Source: Brachionus manjavacas (Eukaryota > Rotifera > Eurotatoria > Ploima > Brachionidae). From it: a DNA stretch of 64,000 nt. The DNA lies in NCBI GenBank assembly GCA_019054805.1, contig JAHQIY010000003.1:2852001-2916000 (forward strand), read 5' to 3'. This document shows, one piece after another, positions 14,339-59,117 of this stretch. The position numbers and the translations under genes are program-made. Every line of letters begins with the position of its first letter. The stretch's first letter is position 1. The notes below the pieces were generated by a model that saw only the letters and a program-made list of their open reading frames with translations, made no database searches and was not told where the DNA came from.

Positions 14339-15025
14339 AGACCCGAATATATTTTTTCTTTCTCATAAAATTCTGACTTAAGCAAATTTGTATAAAAGTC
14401 ACCAGTCACAAGTCAAGTGCAAGTCAGGACTTGAATTCAAAAATTAAAAAAAAATTTTTTTTATAATTAATAAGTCTATCAAGAAGTCAAAAATTAAGAA
14501 GTATCTCCAGTTCAAATTAAGAAGTCTTAAATATCTGTATTGCTTGTAAAAATATTCAAGAGCACAGTCTCTAATTTTAAAATTGAGTTGGATAAAATTT
14601 TTTGTCATTAGAATATAAAGTAAAATATAATGAAATAATTTATTTATAAATTTAATGTTTGGTTTAAAAAGGGCTGTTAAAACAGCTAGTTGTTTTAAAA
14701 GCCTAGTTTAAATGTGAATTAATAAAATAAAGTTTAAATCTTTAAAAGAAAATAAAATTTAAAAGTAAAAATCTGACGTTGAATAATAACAGTTGACCAA
14801 CTCTTTATATTACATATGATATATCTGATGCAGAGTTTACTTGAGAGAATTTAAAATTTTTTGAGTGTTACGAGATTAAGTAAGAAGGAGATAAAAACAA
14901 AAAAAAATTTAGTCTTATTTAAATGAATTTAGTTCTTTGGATATGCTTATTTTTTAAGTTATTTTAATATCAAAATTAATTAGTCCTGAATCCTTTGAGA
15001 AAAAAAAAATTTTAATTTTTTTAAC

Positions 15026-15420
15026 TAGTTGGAGACGATGAATTTAATTTCGATTTTATTGAATCTAACGAAAACGAGGAAATCTCTCCAGAAGAGGAAG
15101 AAGATGATTTAACCAGTTCAGAAGAAGAAGAAGAATCATATTCAAATGTAATTGAAAGTTTTAACGAAACAATTCCAAATGAAAAATGTCATCTGAGATA
15201 TTTAGCTCATTCCATTCAACTTGTGGTAAAGGACAGCCTAAAAAAAGATTAATAATTTTCGTTAAGTGCTTTTAAAGTGTTACAAAATATCAGCAAAATA
15301 TATTAGCTTTTAATATTTATTTATGGCATGTCCAGATTAATAGACATAGAAATTTGAAATATTCTTGAGCCATTCGAATGGGATTCAAATGAGATACAAG
15401 GTAAATAATTATTCGAGTTT
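15026..15420 (+). pseudogene. hAT transposase remnant, central part
   Basis: The frame from 15029 reads an acidic stretch (EEEEDDLTSSEEEEE) and then HLRYLAHSIQLVVKDSLK, the conserved C-aHtLqLvvkdal segment of hAT transposases that starts the RNase-H-like catalytic region. Further on ILEPFEWDSNEIQGK matches the hAT pattern LEPFE.aT..lqG. Stops and frame changes separate the pieces, and no complete catalytic triad can be read. Confidence 0.75.
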
Positions 15421-15784
15421 TTTAAAAGTCTCATATTAAGTAGTAAGTAATTAAAATTAAGGTTAGGACTATATTAATTCAGGAATAGAATTGGGGGCTG
15501 GTCAAAAGGCAACGTGGCGGCTAATAAAACAGTCCAACATAAAAAATTTAGTTAAATATTTGAAAAAAAATAAAAGGCATTAAAAGCAACATTTATCTTT
15601 TATTTTAAATTAGTAAATATTTAAATATTAATATTTTTGATCAATTAAAAAAATGTATTTATTAAATGTTTAATAAAAATATAATGTACAGATTTTTGAA
15701 AAATATTAAATAAATTTTTATTTAGAAATTTAGATAAAGAAAAAATATTATTTTTAATGCTTAAAATTTTTTCAAAAACCTAAC

Positions 15785-15935
15785 CAAAACTTTTGTTTTG
15801 AGCCGTTTTCTGGCCGGTCGTCTGTTAAACAGCCACTCAAGTGGCCGACCACCACACGATCGGTATGTCTGCTGTTCGGCCACTTCACAGCCGTTTTTTT
15901 TTGTCCGATAGTTTGTCGTCCCCCAACACTATTTA
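15785..15935. other. Island of higher GC inside the hAT relic
   Basis: The stretch with gccggtcgtctg, agtggccgacc and ttcggccacttc is clearly richer in G and C than its surroundings and contains short self-complementary pieces (actcaagtggcc/ggccacttc). It may be part of another insertion whose other end lies near 15485 (ttgggggctggtc against gtcgtcccccaa). Boundaries are not established. Confidence 0.4.
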
Positions 15936-16333
15936 GAACTTTAACTTAAAATTAAGTCATTTTTAGAGAAAATTAAAAGGCCGTTCCTTGCTGTAATGAT
16001 GGCCACAAGAATTTTTGTAGGTAGTTAAATGGCAGCCTAGTTAAAATTACGTCCCGTTTCGGACTTGACTCTGGACTTGTGACTTTTATACAGCTCATGA
16101 ATTATTAAAATTGTTTAATTATAATTTAACTAATAAAACTAAAAATTGGAGAAAATTTATTGCACATTATGTTTAGTCGTTCCAAGTTTGTATCAGCTAA
16201 TTGATAACCTTAATCATTATGAGCCAAAAATAATAATCTTAGATCTTCCAAGCAAGATATAGAAATCAATTTAAGAAATCAAAAACAGTCAGTCTGATGA
16301 TACAAAAAAGATCAAGCATCAAGTTTAAGAATA

Positions 16334-16737
16334 CTAAAATATTAGTGATGTTGGTTTTGCTTGGTTTGGTGGTTAACAAATTTTGGTAAACCAAAAATTC
16401 GGTTAGCCAAAATATGTTAACCAAATTACCAAAAATTCTAAAAAAAATTTGACAACAAAAATTGGCTTAATTTTAATTTTATTTTTGTAAAAGTATAAGG
16501 AATCCTTTTCAATAAATCATTTAAATGAATTATTTTTTTATTAAATAAGAATTTATTTGAATAACATAAACCGAAACTAAAATTTACAAATACAAATTCT
16601 AAATTAATTTTTGGTTTACCAAATTTTGGCTAACCAGATTTTTGGTTAACATTTTTTGGCTAACCGATTTTTTGGTTAATCAAAATTTACAATATTGGTT
16701 AACCAAGCAGTCCATAACCAACATCACTCTAAAATAT
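16334..16737. mobile_element. 386-bp nested MITE, MULE-like, with exact 9-bp target duplication
   Basis: The element runs 16343-16728 and starts tagtgatgttggtt and ends aaccaacatcact. The 9-mer ctaaaatat lies directly outside on both sides (16334-16342, 16729-16737). The interior is two facing arrays of ggttaaccaa-type motifs, so the whole can fold back on itself. It sits inside the hAT relic. Its ends match the right end of the MULE at about 57955-58010, which makes a MULE-driven non-autonomous element likely. Confidence 0.8.
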
Positions 16738-16756
16738 GGAATATGATTTTATTTTG

Positions 16757-16925
16757 AGGTATTTTTGGTTGAAAAACAAATCAAGATCTCCGGATTTATA
16801 TTTATTAGTATTAAAATATATATCTATACCGGCTTCCTCGGGACCGATAGAAAGAACATTTTCGTATGCCGGCTACATTAATAAGCCTAAAGTTCAAGAC
16901 TAACAGCGAAAAATCTTGAAAAAAC
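16757..16925 (+). pseudogene. hAT transposase remnant, C-terminal dimerisation region
   Basis: The plus strand reads FWLKNKSRSPDLYLLV, then IPASSGPIERTFSYAG and INKPK. This is the hAT C-terminal dimerisation domain (W..n...P.L...a...l.IPasSa.sER.FS.aG.i). It is separated from the central transposase part by the nested MITE. Confidence 0.8.
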
Positions 16926-17512
16926 AATACTCTTACGTTGTAATCTCAATCTTCTAAACAATTAAAGAGTATTTTATGATGGAAAAAAAAACATAAGAAT
17001 TTTCTTTTTGATTTATTTAAATTTAAAAAAAAATGAACCTGAAAAATAATTAAACTTTAATTTACCAGTTAATAATTTTTATTATAAAATTTAATTTTGT
17101 TTGGTAGGTTTTTGTTTGCAACCGATTTCGTACGATTTTAAAGAAAAAAATAATTCATACGGTTGAAGTTACTTGTTTTGCGGTAGGTTGTTGTGATTTG
17201 ATTGCTACTAATTAGATTAAATGTCGGCTGTTAAAAAAAATAAAAAAATTAAAATATGTAATGTTGAATAAATCATGTTTCAATTTACATTTTGAAAAGA
17301 AGTTAAGACAAAAAATTTATTAAATAAAAATTTTTTTTTAAATTTTTCAAAAAAAACACCTTCAAAATCCTGACTTGTTTTTTTTAAATTTTTGAAACAA
17401 GGCAAGACTAGTTATTTTTAAAAAATATATTTACAAGTTCAAGTCATACTTTGACTTGCTTTTGACTTGTTAAGATTTTCTTTCCTGACTTTTATACAAG
17501 TCTGGACTAAAG

Positions 17513-18112
17513 TGATAATGGACTTTCGTTTGGTGCATTTTAACAAATACTCAATTTATGAAAAATGGAAAAATATTATCTTTAAGGATCATCATATCAC
17601 AAACTCCAAGTCAAAATTTATAAATATTAACTTATGATAATTTTTTTGAAACTGAAAATAATATTTGAAACATCGCACTTTTTCAATATTATTTCAAAAT
17701 TTGATATATTTTACACTTCAAACACAAAAAATTAATCCAATTTTATTTTAATATCTACTGAATGTCTCAGTCCATAAACTGGAATTTGTTTACAATTGAA
17801 TATTAAAAAAAAATTAAGCTAAATTACCTAACAAGGAATATTTTTTTTTTTAATTCTTGCAAAAAATCTTTTTGTCATTTTTTACATGTACTCTTAAAAA
17901 ATCATATTTGATTAAAAAATTTCTTTAATTTTTCCCAAAAAAAATAATTAATAATAATTAATAAAAAAAAATAATAATTTTCATGCTCATTAGTTAAGTA
18001 CATTGACTAAGTTGCGGTCATAAATATCAAATAATTGAAATAAAGACCAGCGCTTCTTTTGGTGTTTAACTTGATCGACATGAAATTTTAAAAACCTTTT
18101 ATTTAAAAATTT
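17513..18112. other. AT-rich spacer between hAT relic and Gemin5
   Basis: Contains a reverse-strand left half of dispersed repeat R at about 17635-17755 (fragment aaacatcgcactttttc). AATAAA on the minus strand near 18100-18112 could serve the Gemin5 transcript. Nothing else is seen. Confidence 0.5.
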
Positions 18113-21100
18113 TTATTCAATATTTAAATAAGCTTTGAACTTTTCTGATAAAAGTTTTAAGCAAAGTTCGAATTCTGAATCGTTTTTAGAGTTGCGTCTA
18201 ATTAATGTTTTGTAAGCATTCTCTAAATCACCAAGGCGAATGTAACACAGAACAGCCATTTCGTAGTCACCAACATGTGTCGAGTAGGCTGAGTAACTGA
18301 TCAAAATTTTGCTTAAAATCTCACTGTTAGCTGCTAGCCGAATTTGGGCAATACATAAGGCATATTGGTAAAGTTTATATTCCAAGCATATATCCACCGC
18401 TTTTTGTATCTGAAAGGTACAGCAGCAATGCAAAATTGCTTTGATTACACAATCTGAATTGTTTCCATTTAAAGACAATTGGTCAATGTAGCTATTTACC
18501 AGTTCCAAAGAACTTTTGTTTGGAACAGAAATCATAGATTGATACAAAGACATAATTAAATCATTTAATTGTTGAGAATCATTAAGTTCTTTGACAACTT
18601 TAAATAAGTTTCCTTTCCATATATCAAAAATCCACCATCTTTCAAAGCCTATCCGTTTGAGTTCAGTTTCTTCTAGTCTCAATAGGTTTAGTGAAGAAAT
18701 TCGATTGCAAAAAATGTTCAAAATTAGATTTTCTCTATCAAACTCAAATATTTCGGTATTTATATTTGAGAGTTTATTTTTCTCAATTAGATTTTCATAC
18801 AAGATTAGACAATCGTTTAATTTCAATTTTGGGGTTTTGTTGCCAGATGAGCTTAGAACAAATAAAGACTTTAGTTCAGCTGACTTTTGACTTTTAGGCG
18901 CTGTTTTGACCACTGGCTGAGTTATCTTAATCTTTTCAAGTTCAGTGTCGTTTTTGCATACCTCTTGTTCTTGACTTATTATTTGAGAGTCATTTGTGTT
19001 CACCTCTAGTTCTGTTTTTTTAGCATTAACTTGTTTTTTTATTTGTTTAATTTTTTTCTTTCCAAACAAAATTGGGCCTAAATGAAAATAGAAATCAACC
19101 TAAGCTATGTTTTTAGGAAATTTTACATTCTTCAGGTGGTGTTTTGAATTCTTGTGCATCTATATTCCATTTATGCAGACAGTAGTCTTCTCCGCCGGAA
19201 AAAACTTCATTTGTATTCTGGTTGGAAAATAAACAGCACAAAAGTTTATCACTATGTCCTCTATAGTTAGCTATCGCCTCTCCCGACTCCGTATTCCAAA
19301 TCTAAATAAAAATTTTATTTTAATTAGTTTCGAACATTTTTAATTTTTTGAAAATACATTTAATAAAAAAAGCTTGTTTTTATTTTATTAGAGTACAAAA
19401 ATAACATTATTGTTTGATAGGTAAATCAAGCCTTTTTTTGTATATTAGATTGAAAAAAATTCAAAATAAAATTTCACTCTTCATTTTATTTGTTAAATTT
19501 ATTTTGGTAATTTCAGCTCTGTTAATTTTCTGTTAAAATTTTTTTTGTCAATGATATTAAAAATATATAAAATACTGTTTTTGGTTAATGCAAATATTAA
19601 ATTTTATATTTTTTTTTCAAAATTTTAGAATTGATAATTTTTTTGTAATATTTTGTATACTTTTATACAAAAAATTCATACTAGTATACAAATTTTGTAT
19701 AATACCAGTAAGCATGCCTTAACAATTGGTAAACCAGACTCATCTATACCTTTCTTTCTATCATTATTTTTAATTTTAAATTTATTCTTTTCCAAATTGC
19801 CAAAAGTAAAAATTTAAAATAAATTAAATTCACTATCTTTACTTAAAATTATTATTTAAACCGAGAAAACTTAATTTTGTCCTTAAGTTTTTCATAATTA
19901 TACTTTAATTTCATAATTTGAAAATTTTGAATATTTTTTTTAAAACCAAATTTGGTCAAAAAATTTTACTTGACTCACGGTCACATAATTTTTTTGCCGT
20001 TCTTGAAAGTTATTGTGGTGGCCACGTCTAAGACAAAGTCGTTAGAATTAAAGTCCGGACTTGGGCTTAACTTATTAACATGACTTTTTTAACTTTAAAT
20101 TTTGTTCTGATTTTCGGAAAAAAAAAAACATATTTTTGTTCTGATTTTCGGAAAAAAAAAAACATATTTTATCAAAATTCCCAAAGTTTTTTTAATAAAT
20201 TGGAAGAAAATGTAAAAGCTAGTTATTTTGCTAAATTTAAAACAATTAATTTACCTGAACAGTAGAATCATAAGAACAGCTAGCCAGCAAGGTATGCAAA
20301 CCTTTGCACCAGCTCAGACACGTAATTCTTTCTCTGTGTCCCTCAAGCTTGAATTTGTATTTAGAGTATATACTAATTGGTTTGTGTGAATCATTTTGCT
20401 GGTTCAATATTTGGTTAAGCTCAACTATTATCACATTAAAATCATTCGATCCACTAGCCATATAGACTGATTTCTCTGAGCTCTCATCGTACTCATCAGC
20501 ACTCCATTTGATGCAAGTAATCAACTTTTGGTGATTGAACAAGCTGCAAATTTTTGACACTTGATTCGACTGACTTTTGTAGCATTCTATTGATCCGTCA
20601 AATTTACCAATGCTGAAAATATTTCCACCACCTTTTATCTTCAATACTGAAAATTCCGTCAGACCATATTCAGAATTTGTTTCTTCTTCGTTCAATAAAT
20701 TTTTTAAAAACTTATAAAAATTGACGCTTTTTACAGTGTCCGCACTGAGCGGGTCTTTTCCCAAAGAAAATGACTGAACATAGTGCTGCATTATTTTCCC
20801 ATCAGCTACTGAGAACAAATTTATTTTTTTTGAGGTGTCTTCGTCCGGGTCAGTGTTTAACAAATCCTCGCTCCAAACTAAAGTATACACGCTTTGATTG
20901 AAGCTTGTATAAATGTAGATGGCAGGCTTGGAACCTGAAATTATATCAGCAATTCCCACTTTTCCATCTTTGGTACCAAATGCTATCAAAGACTCTTTGG
21001 TCGGATGCCAAGTGATTTGAGTTACTTCGCTGCGTATATTATTCGAAAATGTCTTTACTTTATGCTTGTTTTTCATTAGTTTTATGCTAGAGTCTCCAAC

Positions 21101-24100
21101 TGCCACCGCAACAAAGTCTTTTTGAGATTTCATCAATTTGGAACTATTAATTTGTTTTAGCTAATTTTTTACTTGGATCAATTGGTGAAAATGCAACTGA
21201 ATAAACAAACCCGTTCAAGGTAAGAAGACTATTTTCTTGTTTAAAACTATTTAAACACCAAGTATTGAGCTAAATAAAGAACATTTTTTATTTTTTAAAA
21301 GACAATTTGAACGAAATCGGACAATTCTTAATGATAAAATATTTGAATCAATTTGGTACAAAAATAAATTTAAGTCAAATTCAAATTAGAAATTTGATTC
21401 TTCTAGAGATTAAATTTTGTATTCAAATTTCTAGTTAATTTTATTTTTTTTAATTTAAAATTTATTTAATTCTGGAAGTAAAAAAATTTATTTGAAAAAT
21501 AAAGGTGATCAAGGACAAGTAAAGTCGAGTTCTTACTTTGACTTTAACTTTAGTGAAAAACAAGTCTTAGAAAATGTGATTCACAGATAAAATGAAAACT
21601 AATTCAAAATGACGAAAAATGCATAAATAAATTTTATTTAGATGTGAAAATCACTTAAATCAATTTTTTTTTATGTCAAAAATTAAGTAATAAAAAAGTA
21701 ATACATGAAAATATTATGTCAATAAATAATTTTAAAAAAATTTTCTTTTTTTCCCATTTTAAATGAATTTTGCGTTTACAGCAATGTAATTGCAAAATAT
21801 AACTTACGCTGATTTTAAAAAGTTTTCAGGTATTTTTCTCATCTTCTTTTCTAAGTCTAACTTTTGCTTTTTTTGTCAAAAAGAATTAAGAACACATAAA
21901 TAACATTAAATTAAAAACTAAACAATAACTTTCAAATTCATTTTAATTTGACACAAAAAAATGTATTGAAACAAATGAAGAATCGATGAAATTTTTTTTT
22001 TCATTAATGAAACATTATGAATCTGCTAACTTCTCATCGATGAAAATTCGATTAAATTTTTTTTTCACAGATACTAGATCAAACTTTAATTGACTGGGTA
22101 ATTAATGAATATATCATGAGAAATTGTCTAACATGGTAGATCAGTTGAGCACTAGTGTTTAATTGCTAGAAAGATAATTCAAATAAAAGAAAAAACAAGA
22201 ATAATAAAAATTCAAATAAATTATTTACATATCACCATATGTAAATTTTTTAAATTAATTTTCAATTAAACTTGAATTTCATGCTTAAAATTTCTTTAAA
22301 TTTAAAATCTGTTTAATTTTCGAATTTTCATTTATTTGAATTATGTTTGAGATAAATGAAAAAAATATACTTGAATTTAACACTAGTACTTAAAAAAAAT
22401 ATATCAAACATATATTGGAAAAAAACACCGATTTAATTAAAAAAATTTAAAACATGGAATTTTTTATTCGAAGCAATGAGAAGGAACCCTGGGTTGTTCA
22501 AAACACATATTAGTCCTTATAGCTTTGAGATTTTTAGTCCCAAAAAATTAAAAGTTCTAAACAATAAAATATTAAGAATAATTTTTAATTTTATAAAAAT
22601 AACTTTGTGTTTTAAACTTTGATACTAATGGTTGTTCTTTAAAAATAATCTATTTTTAAAAGCGATACAAAAATTTAAAAATAATTGAAAAATATTAACA
22701 GTATTATAAAGGATATAATGTAATTTTGCCCGACTTAGTATCTTCTAACTTTTAATATGATTTAATTTGCTTTTTGAAGAAAATATAAAATATGTTGCCA
22801 AAGTATATCCAATAAATACATCAAAAGCTAAAAATAATGGGATGGCTGAAAACTCTTTTGATGATTTAATTAATTATTTACAAAATATACACAAAAAATA
22901 CAGGAAAAATCAGAGTTGTTTAAAAGTCACAAGTCTCAAGTCAAGTCCAAGTCCGAACTTTTTATTTTATTTATTTTTCAAAAGTAATGTGTTTTACGTT
23001 TTTTTTTTGCTTTTTTTCCCAAATCCCAAAAACTTAACAATTTTTTTACTAAACATTACTAGATAATTCTTAAATTGTGTTAAGTTAATAACTGTCCAAA
23101 TCTTGGTTGCTTCGGATAAAAGGACAATTTTTAAACATTTCTAAAATTTATACAAAATTCACTTTTTAAATATATGTGCCTTAATAATTATTATTTAAAA
23201 ATTTTTTAAAGAAATTACTCATTTCAATCTCTCTCATCTTTAAGTCAAACACATTACTTTTGGAAATGAAAAAAAAAGTCTGGACTTGGACTTTAATTTG
23301 GTACTTTTAAACAACTCTGGGAAAAATAACAACCTCTTTTAAAAAATTTTCCAATGTTATCTTATGGTGGTTTCTTGTTTCAAATTTCATCTAAGCCCGA
23401 ACAAAAAATAAACTGGCGATGTATTGAGACAAAATTTTCCAAGGTAAAAAATTTCTAATTTAATTGGTAGTATTTTTTATTTTGCTATTTTAATAAAGTT
23501 TATTGTCATTGTAATTAGTGCTTTCACTTTTTTTTGCTCAATTAACCTGGCTATCTTAAATATTGCTATTTTAAATGACTCCTGTAAAAATCCACGATTA
23601 TTTTTAATAGACATTTAAAATGATTGATTAGATTTAAAAAATAAAATTATAAATAAAATTTTACTTTGCTAAAAAAGGTTTTCCTGATTTCTCTTTTGTT
23701 ATTTTTCACCACTAATATATTGTCTCTTTCTGGTACAGCTATTTAGTTCACTTTGTTCGTCGAAGAAATTCAAGGATTTCTCCCAGCTCACCTTAGAGAT
23801 AGCATAAAATTGATGACGAATTATATTCTTTACCATTTTATCAGTAATAGAAAACATTTGAAATTGATTAAAATATTTTGTTAAAATTCATTTCTTTTTG
23901 TAAAAAAATTTATAAAATTTAATGTTTTCTACCATATTTTAGGTAAAAAAGGTAAATTATTTGCTTCAAAGCAGCACTGTATGTAGTAGATTACTCAAAT
24001 TTAATAAAAAATTGTTTAATTTTTAAAAAGAATTAAGCATATTATTGTTTTGAATTTTTTTGTATTGTAGTTAACTTGACTCTCTTATTCTCAAAGCAGA

Positions 24101-29180: not shown

Positions 29181-29184
29181 TATT

Positions 29185-30832: not shown

Positions 30833-31009
30833 GAATATCCGATTTTCATGAAATTTTGCACAAATCTTCTTTGATATAAGACTATTGTTCCCTGCTAATA
30901 TTAAGCAGATCCGAGGTTCAATAAGATAAAATTTATAGTAAAAAAGTAAATAAAGGTCAGGTTTAGAATTCTTTATAAAAACATAAGTGAAAAAGGAAAA
31001 TTTTATGAC

Positions 31010-32180: not shown

Positions 32181-33400
32181 TAAAGTTCGCTGTACCATAA
32201 ATAAAAATTTTTTAATGTTGAATTTTTCATCCTCTCGATGCTTTTTTTAACTTTTGTTTTTAACCCTTAGCTTTCATCCTAGCGTGATATCTCATTGACC
32301 AAAAATTGTCCAAGATAGCTAGAAGAGGTCTCCTGGGGGATGGTTTTGGAGGATTCTTATGAAATACATTCCTGGTACCTGTTTTGTACTTACTATGGAT
32401 AATCAAGGGCACTAAAAAATAAAATACGTTTTATTTCAGCTTATTCCGATTATAATTTGCGGAAATACTGCGTAAAAACCACCTTTTTACACATATTTTA
32501 AAACAGATATAAGTTGGAAGGTGATATCTAAAGGGCCGAAACAGACCACAAATTCTGATAGAAGAAGAAATTTAGAAAATTTTAGTTTTTTTGATTTTTG
32601 TAATTAAGCTTTTATTCGCGAAAATTTAATTTAAAATTTAAATAAACGTAGCCTATTTTCAAAAAATAAATTGTTTTTTTTTCAAAAGAATTAGGAATTT
32701 TGTTTATTTTTTATAAATTAGCGTTCTATTAGATCAGAGTTGTTTAAAAGTCCCAAAAAAAGTCCAAGTCCGGACTTTTTTTTATTTCTTTTTTAAAAGT
32801 CAATAATAACCACCTGGGACCGCAAAATTATCAATTCCTGGGACGGAATAAATTCCATTTGATCCTTAACATTCATTGAACGTGAAAAATTCCTGAATAA
32901 TTACTCTCCATGGAAAAATAGGAAGATTTATTTGAATAATTTTTAAAACCGGAGAAAAAATTGACTTTGGAATCTCGGAAAGTCGAGTCATCAAGATTAA
33001 GACAATTTATTATTTTAAAATATTTAAAGAATTTTTCTACTATAAAAGTCAAAAAAAATTAAAAGACTTTGACTCGGACTTTTGACAAAAAAAAAAAAGT
33101 CCAGACCTGTGACTTTTAAACAACTCTGTATTAGATCACCTAATGGCATTTTTCTATGACTTTTAACTTCTGCTTTAGCTTTAAAATGTGCACTCATTAC
33201 TGTTTTGCCTTCGATTACTCACAGTAGGGTCAAAACGGGTACGAGGAGCATATTTCCTCAGAATCCCCCAGAACCGTTTTCTAAAGGACCTCTTTTAATT
33301 ATCTTGGACAATTTTTGGTCAATGAGGTTAGGTAAAAGTAGCGTGAGGATGAAAAATTCATTTTTAAAAAAAGTTAATATTAATGGTGCAGCGAACTCTA
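32181..33400. mobile_element. Long inverted-repeat element interrupted by a nested hAT MITE
   Basis: The left arm starts taaagttcgctgtacc at 32181 and the right arm ends ggtgcagcgaactcta at 33400. Long complementary stretches follow inward: tgaatttttcatcctc (about 32220) against gaggatgaaaaattca (33345-33360), ctcattgaccaaaaattgtc (32292) against gacaatttttggtcaatgag (33307), and gaagaggtctcctggggga against tcccccagaaccg. The arms are about 200 bp and imperfect. Without the nested 402 bp (element plus one duplication) the host element is about 0.8 kb. No transposase is visible and no target duplication was found. The open frame at 33205-33525 lies in the right arm and is not a gene. Confidence 0.75.
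32727..33136. mobile_element. hAT-type MITE, copy B, exact 8-bp TSD
   Basis: The element runs 32735-33128 (394 bp), starting cagagttgtttaaaag and ending cttttaaacaactctg. The octamer tattagat is duplicated exactly at 32727-32734 and 33129-33136. Internal landmarks are aataaccacctgggaccg and ttggaatctcggaaagtcg; both recur in copies C and D. The interior carries gactttgactcggac-type subterminal motifs. Confidence 0.9.
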
Positions 33401-37059: not shown

Positions 37060-38112
37060 AATTCTTGATATGTAAAGAATTTGTCCAAAATTCATCTTGG
37101 ATAATTCTATTAATTTTTATGATAATTTTGAGTGCAACGTGATCCTGCAGGAGGGTACTTCAGAATACTTCGAAATTATGACAGGGGTCCGTCAGGGATA
37201 CATTCTTTCTCCATTACTTTTCTTGACCCTCATCGACTTTGCAATGAGGAGAAGAACTGAAGGACATCGAACTGGCATTTACTGGGGAATGCCTCTGGGT
37301 CGGATGGAAAATCTCGAAAATCTTGATTTTGCAAATGATATTGCCCTAGTATCACAGATGGAGAGCCATATGAGAGAAAAGACCGAGAAGCTGAAACGCA
37401 ATACGGGATATGTTGGCCTAGAGATAAACACCGGAAAAACAGAAATTATGTGCAGAAACAAAAAACTCAATGCACCAATTTCTGTTGGAGAAGAAAATCT
37501 TAAATTCATCGACAGCTTTACATACCTAGGTAGCGTGATTAGCAAAAAAGGTGGCTCCGAAAAAGACATTCGAAACAGATTAACGAAGGCCATAACTGCT
37601 TTTTTCAAAATAAGGCATGTTGAAATCATCATTCCTTCGACTGAGAACTAAATTGCATCTTTATAGTAGTCTTGTCAAATCAGTATTGTTGTATGGATCT
37701 GAATGCTGGAGGATTACTGACAGTGATCTTCAAAAGATCGAAGTATTCCATAACAATTGCCTACGAAAAATTTTGAGAATCTTCTATCCGAAAGTAATTA
37801 CAAATGAGGAGCTGTACAACAGATCAAGGGCCGAGCCAATCTGCAACATCAATGCAGAAGACGACTTTAGTGGCTTGGTCATGTCCTTAGAATGTCAACA
37901 GACAGAATTCCTAGAATTGCACTATTTTGGACACCTCAAGGAAAGAGAAATGCTGGAAGACCAAAGATGACCTGGAGGAGAACAGTTGAAAAAGATCAAA
38001 GAGATGAAACTCACATTGGGGCAGTCAGAAATTTTCGCTAAGGATAGGGTAGAATTGAGGGGACGTGTGGACGCCTTATGCTCCACTGGGAGTAGAAGAT
38101 AGAAGAAGAATT
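37060..38112 (+). mobile_element. RTE-like LINE, 5'-truncated and broken
   Basis: Begins in the reverse transcriptase: FYDNFECNVI, TGVRQGYILSPLLFLTLIDF (about 37180-37240), LENLDFANDIALVSQ (catalytic box with N for D), GLEINTGKTEIM, and FTYLGSVISKKGGSEKDIRN. A second frame from 37617 gives LVKSVLLYGSECWRITDSDL and NCLRKILRIFYP. The 3' end encodes the W..RVDALCS-type tail and the tatgctccac stretch (about 38078) also seen at 47893 and, inverted, at 52884. This arrangement is typical of the endonuclease-RT elements often placed in RTE or Proto2; I do not fix the clade. One frame change at about 37620 and later stops make it dead. Confidence 0.78.
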
Positions 38113-45281: not shown

Positions 45282-45547
45282 CAGAGTTGTTAAAAAGTCA
45301 CAAGTCTCAAGTCAAGTCCGGAATTTTTTTTTAAAGTCCGAGCCAAAGTTCCGAGATTCTAAAGTCAATTTTTTCTCCGGTTTCAAAAATTATTCAAATT
45401 AATCTTCCTATTTTTCCATGAAGAGTAATTATTCAGAAATTTTTCACGTTCAATGAGTGTGAGGAGACAAATTAAATTTCTCCCGTTCCAGGAAATGATA
45501 ATTTTGCGATCTGAGGTGGTTATTATGGAAGCCAAGCGAGTGTTGGA
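45282..45547. mobile_element. hAT-type MITE, copy C, one end missing
   Basis: Starts cagagttgttaaaaagtcac, then runs through tctaaagtcaattttttctcc, ggaaatgataattttgcg and ggtggttattatggaagcc. These are the reverse complement of landmarks in copies B and D. No closing terminal repeat is present, so it is truncated at about 45547. Confidence 0.75.
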
Positions 45548-46241
45548 CATTTTTATTTAAAAAAATTTTTTTAAACATTTCTGAAATAAAGTATAACTTA
45601 ATATATTAAACTAATAATAATATATTTGATCAAAATATTTACCAATGCTATAAAATTCCAGCTTTATAGGGAATAGAAAAAATTCAATAGATAGCAAGTT
45701 CAATATATATTAAGATTTGGGACTGAGATCAATGATCATTCATGCAGGCAATAAATTATTTTATTTAACTATTAAAATTTAGTGATGCAACTATTCGTAA
45801 AGGTTTACGGTATATAAACAAATTTAATTAAAGTATTTTCAACTTTTTTTATTTTATCAAATTTAAGTCACACAATAAATCACATTGTTCTGGCCATATT
45901 TGATCATTTTGATGTGAATTAAATACGATACCAAGTAAGACTACTTCAAATCCATGTTAAATGAGACAGATCATCAGATTAATTAAAATGACCAAAAGTA
46001 ATCAATTAACAACTAATTAATAGCTACATAAATTTTTATAATTTTATTTATTATCATCTCTGTTTGCCTAGAAAATTTTCCTTTTGAAATTGTTTTTTTT
46101 TCGCCCATTGCAAAAATTTTCCAACTTTCAAATATTTGAATGCATACGACTTACAATCGAGGTATTTTATTATAATTTATTCACTAAGCAAAAAATATAG
46201 AAAAAGGTAGATTTATTGTGGTTTTTTTTTTATTATTAAGA
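45548..46241. other. Upstream region of the RPS6KC1-like gene
   Basis: AT-rich. The only recognised element is the inverted shared motif at 46110-46195. Confidence 0.5.
46110..46195 (-). promoter_or_regulatory. Shared upstream motif, copy 2 (inverted, before RPS6KC1-like)
   Basis: Read on the minus strand: ttttgcttagtgaataaatt, ataataaaatacctcgattg and taagtcgtatgc, then attcaaatatttgaaag. This is the 39161-39250 motif without the 13-bp insertion, at roughly 90 percent identity over about 75 bp. It lies 50-130 bp before the chosen ATG. Confidence 0.5.
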
Positions 46242-49200: not shown

Positions 49201-51424
49201 ATTAATTTACGTTATAATTGTCCCTTTTGTTAGAAAATAACGGGGAAGTGATCATGCACTTTTTAATGGAAAAAAAAGATTTAAAAAAATGCTACTTTCA
49301 ATTTTATTTAATGTTTTTTTATCATTTTTTTTGTTTTATTACAACCACTTTTAAACTGTTGTTCGCTTTAAATCATGATAAACTAATGTACTTTTGGACC
49401 GTAAGAATTTTTATTAGTGACTTTAGATTTATTTGGCTAGTCAACTTTGTGATCACTGGTCATAATATTAACCTGGCTTGCTTGTTTTTGAAGGTGAGAA
49501 TTATGATCAAAAAAAAATTATTTTTCTCGATCAGTAATTTATTTTTTGAGCATAAAATTTATCCTAAAATTTGGTTTTGTTTTGTTGAAATTTTTTTTGG
49601 TATTATTTATGATCACGAAAAATGCTCTTATGCAATAGAAACATTTTAGTCGACAAAGTTCTTTATAAAATGAGGGTAGTATTAAGAATTATTTATTCAA
49701 AATCGCTTAGAAAGATAAAAATTTCATGCTATTAATATTATTAATTCAAGAATAGACTATTTTTGTTTTATTTTTTTAAGTATTCAAATAAAATAATAAT
49801 AATTAACTAATAAGTTTATAATGATAAAAAATGTGATCAGTTGGTCACAAAATTGACAATCCAAAAATTAAAAAAAAAAAAATTTGAATATATTAAAAAA
49901 TAATATAAACAATTATTTAATAAATAAAAATTTAAGCAATTATTTTTTCAATTTATAAATTAAAATTTAGAAAAATTTTAAAAAAATCAATTATAAGAGC
50001 TATTTATTATCTATGTAAATTAATCAAAAAGAAAAGTGTCAAAGCAGTACTGTATACTCAATAAATGAATTCGAATGCATGAAAAAAAAGCTCCTTTTTT
50101 TACAATAATATTCATTACTTAAAAAAAAATAATTAAAAATTTTTTAAAATTTAATTTTTTTAATAGAGATTGGGAAAATCGAACAACCCCAAAGTAACCA
50201 AAAAATCCATAGTGCCTTTTGCAAATAAAATACCCTACATGTGTCAGCTGCAAAAATATTACGAGTCCGATACAACAATTTTTTTGCTCATCGAATACTT
50301 CGAACACGGCCTATTGTACAATCACCTAAATTTTTTTTACCAAAACCCGGAGAATTTTTTCAAAGACTTACAAAATATAAAAAAACTCACTCGCCAGGAA
50401 TCAAACGAAACTATCCGCGAGAATTCACTGCACCGCCGCAATTCACTCTCAGTCATCCACGTAAGCTACTCTTCTAATCAATTAGCTAGACCCAAACGCA
50501 GAACTCAATCGGAAATGCATGAGCGAAAAACCATCTACAGACTGGAAAGTTTCAGCGAAAATCAGCTCACAGAAGTCAATTTGCCAGATTTTAAACTAAA
50601 TGAAGTAACATCTTCTGAATCAATTTCTTCATCTTCTTCATTGTCCGATACAGACACCAAAGCCGACCCGGACAGTGTTGTCATTTCAGTAAAAAATGAA
50701 AATAAAAAAATGAGTAAAATCAAAGATTTTTTAAAATTAAAATCAGATAACAAAAAATCGGTCATTTTTTTCAGAGCTAATAATTTAGAGCAGGACAATC
50801 AAAACCAAATATCAAAAAGTGACAGCCAAAGTAGCCATGATGAAAAAACAAATAATTTATCTAGTATGTATTTAAAGCAAGTTAAAATTTGGCTAGCCCA
50901 GCTGATAACCGCAGTTAAAAATCTGCACAAAATGGGACTTGTACTTAAAGACTTGAGCTGGAGGAATTTGTTGCTTGATAAAAGCGGAGCACTACTTTTG
51001 ACTTATTTTAGTAGTTGGAATCTGGTGGAGAGAAAATTGAGCACCAGTGCCTTGGATGAGATGTACGTGGCTCCGGAATTAAATGGACTTGTAAATTATG
51101 AAGTTAGTGAAGTGTGCGATTGGTGGTCTGTTGGTGTTATAGCTTATGAAATGTTAACGCTCAGAAAATTTACAGATATTCATTCAATTAGTCAGATTTA
51201 TGTCGAAAGGATAATGTTTGGTGAAAATTTTAAAAACAAAAAGGCCCAAATTTTTATTAAACAAGTGAGTTTTGAATTGGAAAAGATTTTTTTTTAATTT
51301 TCTATTTTAGATGCTGAGACTTAATCCCAATGAGAGATTAAACATCGAACAAATTGAGTGTCATTCTTTCTTTAAAAATATCGACTGGGTCAATTTGGAA
51401 AATTCGTTTTGGACCGATAAATAA
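46242..51424 (+). CDS. RPS6KC1: RPS6KC1-like PX-MIT-pseudokinase protein
   Basis: Human RPS6KC1 (RPK118) is an endosomal protein that binds phosphoinositide through PX and partners through MIT. Five exons with GT-AG sites all in phase 0: 46242-46415, 46477-46746, 46797-47435, 50167-51264, 51311-51424. The product is about 764 residues. PX domain (about 8-148): WKRFRDLKELYEFMHNYH and FPDFPKAKFFNRFDDQVISE. MIT-like helices (about 185-235): YLAKTVKLIELAIENENSD. Kinase N-lobe spans exons 3/4: NKFILK joined to RLGKSNN and KSIVP. A Ser/acidic insert of about 190 residues precedes the C-lobe, which has VLKDLSWRNLLL in place of HRDLKxxN, LTYFSSW in place of DFG, and CDWWSVGVIAYEMLT, then LNPNERLNIEQIECHSFF. 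Human RPS6KC1 shows the same altered motifs. Introns are 61, 50, 2731 and 46 nt. AATAAA lies at about 51482. Confidence 0.92.
47436..50166. other. 2.7-kb intron 3 of the RPS6KC1-like gene, with a LINE 3'-end scrap
   Basis: At about 47850-47925 cttcgacttgagtg, caaaagtaatga and ctatgctccaca match the 3' end of the RTE-like LINE at 52880-52930 (opposite strand). The open frame at 49218-49649 is hydrophobic and low-complexity and lacks splice support. A GC-richer patch at 48441-48490 (ggtttgagcaccctcaggcc) is unexplained. Without such insertions the intron would probably be about 50 nt like its neighbours. Confidence 0.6.
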
Positions 51425-52076
51425 GTTTTAGTTTTAGTTTTGAATTATTTATTTTGTGTAAAAATTTTAAGAAAATTTAAAAATAAAATTTTATCTTAAT
51501 ATTTATTTCGTTATTTGCTTCGAATCCAAAGTTGTTCACAAGTCATCAATTTTTCTTGACTTTCTTTTTCTTAACATTTTGAGTTGGATATTTGAAGTTG
51601 AGAACAGTTCTTCTCTAAGATAGATAGCATGAAAACTGTAATTTTCAAATAGATTTTAATTTATTAAATTTTTAGAAAAATTTCAAAACAACAGCCATAT
51701 GGGTCTTTTGATTTCAAAAATAAAAAATTAAAGAAGAGAAAAATGACTATTTCACCAGGTTTATTCAGAAGAAATGGGGCAATTAAAAAAGAAACCAGGC
51801 ATTTAAATAGAATTTTTTTTTTTATCTTCTTGAAAAATTTTTAAGGGGAGAGTGAAGTTGAGAGAATATTTTATCTGGAGCAAAGCAATTATTTAAAAAT
51901 ATTTAAAATCTGATTAAAATATAATAAACTAAACGAAATTTTAGAATATTAAAAATTTGTCAAATATAATCACAATTTCAAAATTTAAAAAATATTCAAA
52001 ATCAATTATTGATTTGTAAAAAAAAAATTAAATGTTGAATTTTTTATTTTTTTTATCAAAGTATGAACAAATTATA
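51425..52076. other. 3' flank of the RPS6KC1-like gene
   Basis: Poly(A) signal region and then AT-rich sequence without recognised features. Confidence 0.5.
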
Positions 52077-52212
52077 TTACCGTAAACTCTTGACCACTAC
52101 TCCTGGAACTATGTCAAAATTTTATAACATGGTTTCGATGGTATTAGTTCCATATAGAAAAAACCCAAATTTTGACATAGTTCCAGGAGTAGTAGTCAAG
52201 TGTTAACGGTAA
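52077..52212. mobile_element. 136-bp palindromic MITE
   Basis: The arms 52077-52122 and 52168-52212 are complementary over about 45 bp: ctactcctggaactatgtc against gacatagttccaggagtag, ending in ttaccgt/acggtaa. The loop is about 45 bp. It resembles a very small foldback element. Flanks are too AT-rich to define a duplication. Confidence 0.8.
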
Positions 52213-52324
52213 TTATCTTTAATATTTGATTTGAAAAATATTCGTCTGAAATATTTAGATTTTAATTATAAAAAAGGTTTTTAAATTTAACTAAATTTGT
52301 TAATTATTGTTAAAAAATAATTTT

Positions 52325-52655
52325 TTTGTCAATACGGTTTAATTTTTGGTGTTTGAATTACAAAATGTATCCAATGATGAAATAACATAAGTGCGATGTT
52401 TCAAATATTTTTTCAGTTTCAAAAAAAGAATTTTTAGTTAATATTACAGCATTTTCATATTTAAAATTAAACCTTGATAGTGAAATAGAATGAATTTAAT
52501 TTTTAATTTGAAATTTGAAAAAATTATTGAAAATTCTTTTATAACTTTTAAACAGTTCGTTTATTTATTTTTTACCGAGCAAATGCTCCTTCAGAATAAC
52601 AACAATTTAAAAAACTAAAAATAAAGTTTATAAAAAAAAAGATAAAATATTAAAA
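52325..52655 (+). repeat. Dispersed repeat R, copy e (longest plus-strand copy)
   Basis: Contains in order ggtttaatttttggtgtttg, aatgtatccaatgatg, agtgcgatgtttcaaat, gttaatattacagcattttc, gatagtgaaatagaatg and gagcaaatgctccttcag. Other copies are at 13866 and 25615 (plus) and 17635 and 29430 (minus). The copies overlap on different halves, so the full unit is about 330 bp. No terminal repeats or coding sequence are evident; type unknown. Confidence 0.7.
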
Positions 52656-52879
52656 GATCTAGTTTAAAGAATCTCTTAAGAAATTATCATATTTTAGATA
52701 AACAATAATTTTTGTAAGACATTGTCTCGGGAATCGAAAAAACAATTAAAGAAAATCTAAAAAAATTTTTTTGAGGAAAAATTGTAACATTCAATCTCGG
52801 TAAAGCCTTTTGTCCTATTGAAACCACTATGATTTAATCAGAGATGATAAATTTTTTGTTTGTTTGTCCTTATTTTCTC

Positions 52880-54300
52880 CATGTGGAGCATAGTATCATT
52901 ACTTTTGATTTCCACTCAAGTCGATTTTTTGCCTTTACCTTTGCTTCTACCAATGTCATTCCCATTTCGATGACCTCTTTCGTGATTGTTGACCTCCATG
53001 TAACTGCTGGTCGTCGCCCTTGAAGTGTCCATTGAAGGACTCTTTTTGGTATCCGTGTTTATTTCATACTTTCAAGTGCATGCCCGAGTCATCGCAGTCT
53101 TTTGTTCTTAATGCATTGACTTAATGACTCTGAATTTTTTCTTCTGTATAGGTCAATATTCGACAATGTCAAGGCTTCCCTATGGAAGGTGTTAAGACTT
53201 TTTCTGTCAGATTTACACATCCCCCATCATTCACTTCCGTACATCATTGTTGCTTTTACTAAACTGTTCTTTAGTTTAAGTTTTGTTTCCTTGCTGTAGC
53301 TGGTTGACTTCCATGCTGGTTTGAGTCTGGCGAAGATACTCTTTGTTTTAGCAAGCCTATTCTTAATGTCTCTGTGTGTTCCCAACGTTGTACTAATTGT
53401 GCTATCTAGGTATGTGAATTCATTTACACACTCGATTGGTGTACCATCTATGGTGATTGGGGTTTCCAATTTGGCATTTATGCACATAATTTTCGTTTTG
53501 GCCACATTTATTTCAAATCCGGTTGATTTAGCGTTTTTCGCAAAATCACGCGTCTTTATGTGCATATGTGCTTCTGTATTAGATATTTGCACCAGATCAA
53601 GCTTTGCTGTTAATCCCCATTGTATACCCCTCGCATGGCAGTTGTTTTATTTATGACATAGTCAATCAGTATTAGGAATAGAATCGGAGAGACAACAAAC
53701 CCTTGTCTGACTCCTGTAGACACTTTGCAGTTCTCAGATTTTCTTTTTCCAGAATTAAGCTACACTCGGATTTCTCGTAAAAGAGTTTTACCAAGTTAAC
53801 TATATACGCAAACTGTCGCAGGCCATAGGATCTTAATATGGCCCACAATGTTTCTCTGTGTATGCTATAAAAGGCTTTCTTGAAGTTAATGAATATATCA
53901 CCTTGCTTGCTATCGGTAACAGTGTTATTCATCGCCAATTGTCATAAATCACTTAGTAAACTTTCTTAGAAAGCTTGACAATTAGGCCTTATGACCAGTC
54001 CATTGGCATGATTTCTTGCCGCTATATCTTACTGAATAGGTCTTGTATTATCCCTATTGTGATCCTACCGTCAGCTTTCAACAATCTAAGGACTCTATAG
54101 GTTCTGGTCTATTTAAAACTCTTTAAGGTACTCAACTCATCTTTGCTTTTGCTCTTTTTCAATTGTTAGGAAACGACCTTTTTTGTCTTTCACTAATGTT
54201 TTTCTTTTCTGTGAAGAGCTACATATCGAATTAGTGATCTGGTGTAGTTTATGTAGGTCCTCTTTTGAGGTGGCTTCTTCATATTTTTTTGTAATCGGTG
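52880..54300 (-). mobile_element. RTE-like LINE, broken
   Basis: Minus strand, 5' to 3': VKDKKGRFLTIEKEQKQR and YLKEF (about 54200), then a decayed finger region, INFKKAFYSIHRETLWAILR (about 53870, F-D changed to F-Y), LFYEKSECSLILE, and IKTRDFAKNAKSTGFEINVA with KTKIMCIN (about 53500), ECVNEFTYLDSTIST, and KLKLKNSLVKATMMYGSE (53230). The 3' end carries gactatgctccacatggag-like DNA shared with 47893 and 38078. Same kind of element as that at 37060. Many stops; inactive. Confidence 0.75.
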
Positions 54301-55589
54301 AAATGTAAATATTTTATTACTTAATTAAGGCATTGTGCATTTTTATACGAACCTTCAAAAAATAACGAAAATTAAATTCTTTTTGATTAACATAAATAAA
54401 TAGATTTGAACTTTTTAAGCTTTAAGGATGAAGCATCATGAAACAAAATATGTTTCAAATGAATAAATAAATGAAAATAAATTTTGATTTACACGGTAAA
54501 TAAATATGATAAAAAAAGACATCAATATTTTGAGATTTCCCTTTATTCGTCTCTACAATCTATTTCAATTGTAATTTTTTTTTGTGAAATTTGTAAATTT
54601 ATTTTTTTTTAACCGTCCACGAAAATATTCTTTCTGAAACTTGCTTTTGATTGTGCCCTCCCTAATGTATAGAAATACTCGGACTATATCGGATATTTGA
54701 TTTTGATATCTTCAAAATTATGTCTTTTTTTGATTTTCGGCTTATCAAATGAAAATTAAATTAATTAATAATTAAATTAATTAATATTAATGTTTCGATA
54801 GACCAGAAGAATAAACAAGTTTTTGTTTCTTTTTACCTTTCATATCCTGTGGTGTCAAATTCGTTTTTTCAGATGAACTTTTTTTAATTTATTTAGTTTA
54901 AATTATTGTTTAACTTCCATATAGAAATTGGATACAATCGAATCTAAAAAATGGTCAATTAATAAAATCCGATTTAAAACCATGATTTTTTTGACACCAG
55001 ATTAATGGTGCAAAATATCAGGAGTAAATTAAATTTCTCGAAAAATTGAAAACCGAGATTTGTTCTTCTAATTCGATACTTTTCTTTCGGATTTTAAAGA
55101 TTCAACTTTTAATGAAAAATTTAAATCGCATGAAACTAAAAATTCAAAAATCTCATAAAAAAATTACAAGTTTAAATTTTTTAGAAACTTTGTGGCACCT
55201 CTTTTCTTTTTACATGCTATTTTAAGTTTGATTGTATCCTCTTTTTATTCTTTACTTCAGATTCAATCAAACATCCTCAATGTTTGTTATACTATAATTT
55301 TCTTTCTTGTCGTTAATTGTTATTAAAGATTCGGTAGCACTTCTTTGTTTCCACATATCACATGGCCTTTCTTCGAAAAAATTTTCCAAATTTGGATATT
55401 ATTTAAGTATCCTGAGTTTTTTTGTCACTAAATTTACTGAAGATGAGTATGATTATGATGAATATAACTCTTAACTTAATTAATGAACAGTTTAAATTAT
55501 CTCTTGATTTAATTTAATTATCTCCTGTGAGAGTTTTTTTTGTGGATATTTAAAGATGATCTAATGTGATCTAAGTTTTATCAAAGTAT
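54301..55589. other. AT-rich stretch upstream of the MULE
   Basis: No open frame or RNA gene. If the MULE had a left terminal repeat it should lie here, but I could not find the tagtgatg end. Confidence 0.5.
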
Positions 55590-58010
55590 TGAGATGTCTG
55601 ATAGTGAGTATCGAGTAGTTGATGACTATGTAACTTCTGAACAGAATCTGAAGACGAGGTTCAAGAATCCAATAAAAAGAAAAGAACCAGGAAGAACTGG
55701 ATCTATGAGAGAACATTCCACGATCAAAAAGCATCCAAAGAATGGTTAGATAATGAAAAGATTTGGCTTCTCTGAAAAGTAGTGAAACTGAGGTCGGTTT
55801 AAGAGTTGATTATCGATGCAATCTAGTGAAGAGAAAAGCACCTCAATGCGCAGCTGCAATTTATTTATTTTCTAAAAGTGAAAATCTATCAGTGGCTTTA
55901 TTTAAAACAAAGGATCAACACAATCATGATAAGATTGCCCACACTGGGCATGGTATTAACAAAGAGACCAAGGAATATATAGCGGACTTACTATAAAAAG
56001 GTGTTAAATTACCGCTTGTCCTTCTAAATAACATCGAGGAGGAAATAGAAAAAAAAAAAAAGAAAATATCATGACCGATTTACAAGTTCCAACTGAGAAG
56101 CAATTGTATAACTACCTAGCTCAGTATCGTAAACGTAAAGGCAACACCAGAATGAATTTTAAAAAGCTTTATGCATGGTGTACCGAGAATATAGCAATTC
56201 CTAGTAACGAGAATAAACATTTTTATCATCGTATCAAATCAGAGTGGATAGCGACGATACAAGTATATATCCAGAAGACAGAGATTCAATACAAATTGAA
56301 GAGCTAAGCTTTCGTCTTTTTCTGACTTCACAGCGTTTACTGAAAACTGCAAAGATTCAAAGTTTATTCAAGCAGATTCAACCTTCAAATTAATATGGAA
56401 CAATTTTCCTGTTTTAATTATCGGTACAAGTGATTATGATAACGTATTTCATCCATTTGGTACATCACTAACAAATACAGAGAATGAACATGACTATCAA
56501 TTTATATTCTCTTCTCTGTTAATTGGATTACAATTAACTAATCAACAAGAGCTAGGCTATGTTGATTTAGTAGCTGATGCAGCAGATTCTATCACTAACG
56601 GATTCAAAAATGAATTCGGAGTAAGAAAACGAGGCATGTGTTGGTTTCATGCGAAAAGGGCTATTACTACACGTATAACAATTGTCAACGACTCTACTCT
56701 ACAATCACAAATTATGCTTAATTTAGACGCATTACAGCTGTGTCAATCTGATTGTCTTTTTGAGAAGGCATCGAAGCTTTTCTTAAAAAAGTGGATTAAC
56801 CATTCAAACAAGAATATCAAGGACTTTCTCAGATATTTTGAAAGCGAGTGGCTCTTAAAGCATCCTGGTTGGTATGAAGGATTTCTCTCTGATGGAAATC
56901 ATTCAAACCAAGCAAAAACAATGGACTAGAATCTATTAATTCTACTGTAAAAAAGAATCATTCGTTCAGAAAACGCTTACCTTTACACCAGTTCTTATCT
57001 CTTGCAAAAGATATTATTAAGCATTGGTCGAAAATGAAATATCTTTTGCAAGAGTATAAAAAAACTAATCAAAGTATGTAAACAACTCTGAAGAGATCCA
57101 TTGTCAACTCAATTGCAAGAGATGAAGATAATATGATCATAAATTACACCAACTCGACGATGGCTAATGTAAAAGTTAATAATCAAAATATCAAGACTTA
57201 CCGATAGGCAGTTGAACATTAAAATTTCAAATCTTTGACGAATTCTATGGAATTTTGTTTAAAACTTGGGAAACAAGAATCAGCTCGGATAGTAACTCCG
57301 AAAACTGGATGCAAACAGCTAGTTGTTCCTGTCCTTCCTTTTTTAAAGATCATATTTGTAAGCATCTTGTTGGCTTTGCTGCAAAAATGAAACTTGTCAA
57401 AATACCAATCGAAGCTAAGCAAGTAGTTATTGGACAAAAATCTAGAAGAGGTAGACCGTGTAAGTCTAAAAAGGCGCTTGAGTACCAATCAGAAGCAGAT
57501 AAAGAAGAGAGAGTTGTCAGCTTAATAAAAGTTCTAAAGCGAAAGATAACAGAAGTAGAGGAAGAAACTCCACAAAAAACAGTTATACCAACAAAAAAGA
57601 ACAAAAAAACACTTGATAAGGAAGCTGAAAAAGTAGTGCAAGCATCAACCAGCAGTGATACAAGTAAGAAAGTAGAAGCTCCACTAAAGAGAGGTAGAGG
57701 TAGACCAAGAAAAAACTTATAAGATATTATTTTATTTGAAATTATTTGAAATTTTTTATAATTTTTTTTTAAATCAATTTAATAAATAAAAATAAGAGAT
57801 ACTTTAAGTAAAATTAGTTGCTGTTTTATTTAATTTAGGAGACAGATTAATAAATATAAGTTAAGGGTATTTAGTAAAATAAGAGATAGAAAAATATTAG
57901 TGATCGATTAAGTAATTTTAGAGATCGATTAAATACCTCCCATTAAAATTTAGCCAATTTGGCCAACCAAAATTAGCTAACCACATAACCAAGCATTATC
58001 AACATCACTA
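55590..58010 (+). mobile_element. MULE transposon, transposase broken, right end recognisable
   Basis: Transposase pieces in order: RKNWIYERTFHDQKASKEW and DYRCNLVKR...C...QHNHD, a FLYWCH-like Cys2His2 zinc finger (55690-55940); a linker (56071-56307); the MULE catalytic core with QADSTFKLIW (first Asp, 56371), LVADAADSITNGF (second Asp, about 56570) and CWFHAKRAI (56638); GLESINSTVKK (56930); a SWIM zinc finger CSCPSFFKDHICKH (57318-57362); and two AT-hooks, RRGRPCK (about 57445) and KRGRGRPRKN (57689-57718). Several frame changes separate these pieces, so it is inactive as it stands. The right end at about 57955-58010 has aaccaaaattagctaacc motifs and finishes catcacta, matching the end of the nested MITE at 16343-16728. 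The left end is not found. Confidence 0.8.
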
Positions 58011-58279
58011 TTTAAAGTACAATTGTCCCTTTTCTATCATAGCGGATAATGGAGAGGCGCAAGGGCGCCGGTCTGACATCGAGTTAATCATCTTCACCGC
58101 AATTATTATAAAGTCGCAAATAGTCACTTTTTTATGATGAAAGGGATTTAAACATTCGTCCCGTGCTGTTGAGATATTTTGAAGATTTTTTCAACCTCAG
58201 TGGGTTTTGAACCCTCGGTCCTCTGCTTGCATGACTAACACACAATCATTCGGCTATTGGGTCATTTCCATTTAAAGTA
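58010..58279 (-). mobile_element. tRNA-derived SINE, copy 2, with 10-bp target duplications
   Basis: The element (58269-58020, read on minus) has an A-box-like tagccgaatgattg, gttagtcatgcaagcagagg, a B-box-like gggttcaaaaccc, a body (cttcaaaatatctc, atcataaaaaagtgac) and a tail gcgcctctccattatccgc. The decamer atttaaagta lies at both edges (58010-58019, 58270-58279). It abuts the MULE right end exactly. This is the more complete copy of the family seen at 2346-2855. Confidence 0.8.
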
Positions 58280-58860
58280 GAGAAGTTTTTTCATCCTTTC
58301 TGAATAGTTCCTTAAGTAAGCAATTTACTTTTTGAGAGGTAGAAATAAAAATTAAGGATTGTTTTAAGATAAATTGTTATCATTTCGGTTTAATTTAAAT
58401 TACCACTTATTTTGTGCGCTATTTAATAAAAAATTAAAAAAAAATTAATAAAGTTAAATTCGCACTTTTTTAAATTAGTTAGATACAATTAATCAATCGA
58501 TTAGTTTTGAATAATTCGACTAAAAATCACAGCTACAATGTCTATTCAATTTATTTGAGAGGCAAAATTTTAACTTCACCAAAACTCATTTACAAATTTT
58601 AACATGGCGAAGACTTTTTCTCAAAAACTATTGTATTTCTTAATAGAATTTTTATTTTTTTTGTGAAAAATTTTTTGCTTTATTTTATTTTCTTTTACTC
58701 CAAACTTTATCGCCGCATTTATTTATATTTATCATCTTTTACTTTAACATTGTCTATTTTAAATTAAAATTTTAGTAATTATTTTACCATGATCAGGTTT
58801 TAAATTCTCAAAATTAATCTCTGAGCCAATATCAAAGACAAAGCATCACTTTGCGGGTGT
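58280..58860. other. AT-rich intergenic stretch
   Basis: No supported feature. Confidence 0.5.
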
Positions 58861-59117
58861 TTGGCTTCCATAATTACCACCTGGAACCGCAAAAATATCA
58901 TTAATAAAACCGGAGAATAAATTGAATTTGGAATTTCGGAACGTCGAGTCATCTAGATTTAGACAATTTATTATTTTAAAATTTTTAAAGAATTTTTCTA
59001 ATCATTGTCATCATCGTGAAAAAAAAAAAAAAATAATAAAAGTCTTTGACTCGGACTTTTGAAAAAAAAATCCGGACTTGGACTTGACTTGAGACTTGTG
59101 ACTTTTAAACAACTCTG
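58861..59117. mobile_element. hAT-type MITE, copy D, left end missing
   Basis: Ends gtgacttttaaacaactctg at 59117. Contains ttggcttccataattaccac, ggaaccgcaaaaatatca, ggaatttcggaacgtcgag and the gactcggactttt subterminal motif, in the same order as copy B. An internal deletion relative to B removes about 100 bp. The left terminal repeat is lost. Confidence 0.75.

Follow-up and report, generated by a model that had tools for sequence, protein, structure and literature searches.

Copies, ends and a nearby relic of a hAT MITE family in a 64-kb stretch of rotifer DNA

Is a dead transposon that lies beside short elements with similar ends also their parent? A 64-kb stretch of the Brachionus manjavacas genome (C3:2852001-2916000, hereafter the window, meaning the whole stretch analysed; G+C 28%) raises this question. 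It holds a 3.1-kb relic of a hAT transposon and four short copies, A to D, of a family of miniature inverted-repeat transposable elements (MITEs). An initial annotation had read the relic as the probable autonomous source and the copies as its offspring. Searches of the genome (114 Mb, 61 contigs) lead us to a different answer: A-D are hAT MITEs, probably moved by the transposase of another lineage, H, and the relic is probably a dead copy of a sister lineage that has MITEs of its own. The case carries a caution: neither a distance of a few kilobases nor near-identical ends need make a dead transposon the parent of MITEs.

Copies A-D and their family

The four copies and the target duplications of the two complete ones lie as follows.

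22911-23319, + strand: MITE copy A, complete; terminal inverted repeats (TIRs) with 0 and 1 mismatch; GGAAAAAT on both sides, 8/8
22903-22910, no strand: left target duplication of A; partner 23320-23327
32735-33128, + strand: MITE copy B, complete; two perfect TIRs; TATTAGAT on both sides, 8/8
32727-32734, no strand: left target duplication of B; partner 33129-33136
45282-45583, - strand: MITE copy C; left TIR with 1 mismatch, right TIR with 5 mismatches, flanks 6/8
58858-59117, + strand: MITE copy D; right TIR perfect, left end lost

Copies A and B have the terminal repeats and exact 8-bp duplications first ascribed to them. Copy C has a B-type interior in the orientation opposite to B (88% identical to B over 181 bp) and includes AACACTCGCTTGG, family sequence found ahead of that interior in many other copies; its end probably lies at 45583, in a degenerate right TIR, and not at 45547 as first read. 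In D a left TIR was looked for and not found, and the sequence in common with the family stops near 58858. Of the earlier description of C, the interior shared with B stands and the boundary does not. Upstream of D, the stretch 56300-57722 (+) has a MULE transposase domain (E 1.3e-6) and, after it, a SWIM zinc finger matched only weakly and below the cutoff.

Genome-wide, the 18-bp terminal sequence TIR1 occurs at 1355 ends with at most one mismatch (684 + 671), compared with 1 (0 + 1) for reversed TIR1, the control. Within the window, TIR1 is found at 14 places with up to four mismatches, against a mean of 1.8 in five mononucleotide shuffles; a few of the 14 are therefore chance matches. Genome searches with copies B and A returned 644 and 1081 first-look candidates, respectively, of which 40 each were scored. 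TIR pairs and flanks were read in 33 elements (L002-L030 and A-D, L001 being copy B itself). Of these, 24 have a TIR pair, L006 and C counting among them on a 5-mismatch TIR each, and nine do not (L005, L011, L012, L015, L016, L020, L024, L025 and D). The 8-bp flanks match at 8/8 in 9/24 pairs and at 7/8 in another 8/24; mispaired flanks reach the level of at least 7/8 attained by these 17 in 0.5% of cases. Mean flank identity is 0.859 at length 8 versus 0.29-0.42 at lengths 5-7 and 9-11, a pattern that is the classic hAT signature. The 8-bp duplications expected of copies across the genome were thus found in most of these pairs.

Apart from the L006 pair (710 bp) and C (302 bp), which owe their boundaries to 5-mismatch TIRs, the pairs (22/24) span 348-589 bp. 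The family is short, without a transposase gene, bounded by TIRs and present in high copy number, as MITEs are. The TIR CAGAGTTGTTTAAAAGTC and an enriched CAAGTC motif fit the hAT convention of short TIRs beginning CAG or TAG plus subterminal repeats. All five elements, relic included, had been credited with subterminal CAAGTC/GACTTG motifs; their enrichment holds (23/46 window copies inside the five, in 4.4 kb; 0.39 per kb elsewhere), although B has a single copy. Target duplications follow nnnTAnnn in the Buster group and nTnnnnAn in the Ac group. Here, T at position 4 and A at position 5 each occur at 0.46 (both strands, 40 flanks, leaving aside L003, L006, L009 and C), with no sharp motif. 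On hAT identity, MITE status and 8-bp duplications, the TIR1 count, flanks, Pfam and tblastn agree with the initial annotation.

The relic and its own MITEs

The relic, its transposase fragments and the DNA nested in it are placed as follows.

14383-17504, + strand (transposase strand): decayed hAT relic; TIR-like ends, 7/8 flanks, PF05699, collinear transposase fragments
15028-15301, + strand: relic transposase fragment 1, in two frames; 62% and 80% amino acid identity to exon 1 of the L056 transposase
16158-16229, + strand: relic transposase fragment 2; 71% amino acid identity, over 24 amino acids, to L056 exon 2
16733-16888, + strand: relic transposase fragment 3, hAT C-terminal dimerisation region; 72% amino acid identity, over 54 amino acids, to L056; PF05699
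16343-16729, no strand: nested MITE of a different hAT family; TIR TAGTGATGTTGG; duplication TAAAATAT on both sides, 8/8
15490-15932 (approximate, read by eye), no strand: fold-back stretch inside the relic; self-complementary at 69% over 284 bp, with inverted arms

The relic begins with CAAATTTGTATAAAAGTC at 14383 and ends with CAGACTTGTATAAAAGTC (read inward) at 17504, between the flanks GACTTAAG and GACTAAAG (7/8). Its dimerisation fragment matches Pfam Dimer_Tnp_hAT (PF05699) at E 4.8e-6, as does the better preserved L056 at E 2.9e-12, and tblastn places relic and L056 transposase in collinear register at three places. The hAT signatures and 7/8 edge octamers originally reported for this element are borne out by these matches. 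Its transposase fragments sit among stops, and the upstream ones gave no Pfam match.

A MITE belonging to a third hAT family would later have inserted into the relic: the end of the nested MITE recurs in L036, L039, L044/L068 and L045/L072, beside PF05699 matches, and a relative of the relic (L047) is without it. The fold-back stretch, which has only weak partial matches elsewhere, is probably another insertion. At 16096, a decayed TIR-like end (GACTTTTATACAG) with CAAGTC motifs is possibly the edge of a further nested element. Elsewhere, three similar copies of a relative of the relic lie within 26 kb (C10:648113, C10:658127 and C10:673269), suggesting segmental duplication.

A search with the relic DNA returned 201 candidates, of which 40 were scored, with 83 matched rows. 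Three MITEs of the relic lineage were read, L054, L058 and L059 (454, 490 and 508 bp; flanks 7, 4 and 8 of 8, those of L058 compared in register), and all share both termini with the relic. Over 60 bp, the right end of the relic is 95% identical to L058_R, 92% to L054_R and 88% to L059_L, against 63% on average for the A-D family. Its left end is 80-83% identical to the other ends of these MITEs, with a family mean of 70%. L006 and the right end of C stand outside these and the family-end comparisons below. A search with L058 (134 candidates, 40 scored, 79 matched rows) gave at least nine rows, L058 included, that reach within six bases of both ends. Since both relic termini are found in L054, L058 and L059, the relic lineage has its own MITE offspring.

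Candidate sources of the transposase

The best H copy, C12:1191558-1194577, measures 3020 bp and is flanked on both sides by the exact duplication GATTATTT. At its right end (CAGAGTTGTTTAAAAGTCACAAGTC), a TIR1 identical to the right TIR of B is followed by ACAAGTC; its left TIR is CAGACTTGTACAAAAGTC, and its transposase matches to L056 reach 70% and 90%. A copy on C33 has a perfect TIR1 as its right end (L097, the H 3' end), and dimerisation matches that share 77% and 82% identity with L056 lie nearby. The L097 search returned 1082 candidates. By coordinates, four of the 40 scored places fall within or next to pieces of L056-like transposase (C33, C12, C4:899409 and C8:248654) and six have a C-type left TIR partner (C3:8441604, C4:899409, C8:248654, C12, C13:2323208 and C20:542828). 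The a-type family ends have a mean identity of 0.85 to L097, and 18/24 of them resemble L097 more than any of the four left-type ends of the relic lineage. For 20/22 b-ends, the two H ends tried are closer than four relic-lineage right-type ends, but weakly. The left H terminus is known from C12, over 28 bases.

The ends and their similarities, the duplications, the copy number and the transposase fragments are shown directly, whereas the mover of A-D, cross-mobilisation and the origin of the MITE interiors are inferred. In A-D no transposase gene was detected; they are bounded by the kind of ends on which a hAT transposase acts, a TIR with subterminal CAAGTC motifs. Their cut-and-paste movement would have relied on a transposase acting in trans, with 8 bp of target copied at each insertion. 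The likeliest supplier would be the H lineage (relatives of L056), in which C12:1191558-1194577 and C33 share the right TIR, and one MITE end would derive from the H 3' end. By the same account, the relic would be the dead remnant of a sister hAT lineage, one with MITEs of the L054/L058/L059 type to its credit.

Several observations weigh against H. Two of the 24 a-ends tie and four, including that of C, resemble the relic lineage more; the b-ends fit neither lineage well (mean 0.74 to L097, 0.65 to L056 and 0.62-0.71 to relic-lineage ends). Beyond the TIR (bases 19-52), a-ends average 0.77 to L097 and 0.73 to the left relic end (relic_L), so that part of the case for H comes from the TIR itself. 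Trees are weak, moreover, when they are built from ends of ~50 bp in DNA that is AT-rich and has recurring motifs. C12 has TIR1 on the right only, its transposase matches contain stops, and none of the dimerisation matches among the 150 scored of 416 candidates came from it. No H copy was seen that combines an intact transposase with TIR1 on either side, nor was any other intact source.

Other candidate sources were tried and rejected. C1:7907327, taken as the left end of a hAT element with a dimerisation match at C1:7912261, is an A-type MITE split by an insertion, and C1:5563546-5564604 fails as an autonomous copy, its transposase match (C1:5561907) lying outside. Among the 30 best PF05699 loci (L061-L090), only L087 has a correctly oriented end behind the domain; that end, 956 bp past it, is of the L098 type (TAGACTTGTTTTTAAGTC), not TIR1. 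The 3' flanks of five L056-like relatives (L091-L095) contained no end of the four TIR types at up to four mismatches within 641 bp.

The closest competitor, which we regard as somewhat less than probable, is that several sister transposases (those of the relic, of H and of the L096/L098/L099 group) all moved TIR1 MITEs, with no single parent. The TIRs of these lineages are only 1-3 of 18 bases off TIR1, and L099 (294 bp, exact duplication ATTTCTTT) combines a hAT C-terminal fragment with a right end that shares 85% identity with several ends of the family. L099 shows a third end group.

It is decidedly unlikely that the relic lineage itself was the direct source, with A-D as internal-deletion offspring whose ends drifted by two or three bases. 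The relic TIRs differ from TIR1 at only 3 (left) and 2 (right) of 18 bases. Over 60 bp, its left end shares 80% identity with D_R and 78% with two further ends of the family, and beyond the TIR it comes nearly level with H in its identity to the a-ends. Against this, the right end groups with its own MITEs, clearly apart from the family, TIR position 10 is A in the relic and T in 44/46 family ends, and none of A-D is among the 83 matched rows of the relic search (40/201 candidates scored). The claim that the relic was the probable autonomous source accordingly finds little support. The right end goes against the expectation that relic and MITE ends would cluster, the left is ambiguous (about as close to D_R as to its own MITEs), and shared ancestry stands. 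By their sequences, relic and A-D appear to be cousins, not parent and offspring. The likelihood that the inverted repeats arose by chance, or are fold-back DNA of some unrelated kind, is practically negligible: the window is AT-rich and some 4-mismatch TIR matches are chance, but neither 1355 ends against 1 in the control nor 8-bp duplications in 17/24 against a 0.5% null fits such an origin.

The arrangement of ends raises a further, rather doubtful suggestion, that ends and transposases were swapped between the hAT lineages. In the relic, the end that precedes the transposase is G-type (ACAAGTC-like) and the one that follows it is C-type (CAGACTTGTA), while C12, whose exon 2 is 90% identical to that of L056, has the C-type before and the G-type after. 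The end after the transposase is thus C-type in the relic and L056, and G-type in C12 and C33. The right end of L056 is identical to the left end of C12 at 26/28 bases and to the right end of C33 at 19/28, although the L056 DNA inward of that end (about 40 bp in) aligns with C33. Terminal swaps, for example by gene conversion between two ends, could let a transposase capture the ends of another lineage and found a new MITE family. Speaking against exchange, the last 42 bp of L056 and of C33 retain 76% identity with gaps, and the end type of L056 was read on the right only. Were exchange real, TIR identity alone would mislead the assignment of parents.

Neighbouring elements and known systems

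The genes of the window include those of an EML protein and LTV1. A hAT C-terminal dimerisation fragment of a different hAT lineage lies at 62643-62891 (-), in an open reading frame (ORF) at 62619-63107 (Pfam E 2.1e-5; 33% amino acid identity to L056). An ORF pair occurs in two near-identical copies 3.46 kb apart, 5210-6157 and 8667-9614 (-), and in each copy one of the two ORFs has a retrotransposon gag match; a reverse transcriptase fragment (PF00078) lies at 37076-37651 (+), and an ORF at 53227-53646 (-) has a sub-cutoff DUF6451 match. L003:2121-2386 and L017:978-1440 probably represent a further MITE group, with TIRs like CAGACTTGTTTATAAGTC, flanks of 7/8 and 8/8, and ends that resemble those of L098/L099 and the end behind the L087 hAT domain.

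Short derivatives are known here from at least three hAT lineages, namely H, the relic lineage and that of the nested MITE, and the genome could serve for the study of pairing or exchange between ends and transposases. Among the papers listed in a literature search, none, judged by title, is on the present MITE family. The hobo element of Drosophila and its hobo-MITEs are reportedly a relic plus MITE derivatives of one hAT element, and the present set resembles them in this make-up, by description and not by sequence.

Known hAT elements such as BuT2, as PMC3942097 describes them, have 8-bp duplications, short TIRs, a C-terminal dimerisation region and lengths of 2.5-5 kb; the elements here share these features and the size class, with the difference that no intact copy was seen here. 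hAT MITEs with relic transposases are already well known, and the present family adds another: the set is an ordinary hAT/MITE community, and ordinary repeat biology for the window. The nearest parallel is the Mar MITEs of Drosophila willistoni (Buster group), for which PMC3517528 reports a hAT MITE family alongside relic transposase copies and proposes an origin by internal deletion. Mar and the present family have in common TIRs, duplications and relic transposase copies in one genome; they differ in that the relic near the MITEs here appears to come from a sister lineage and not from the one to which the MITEs belong.

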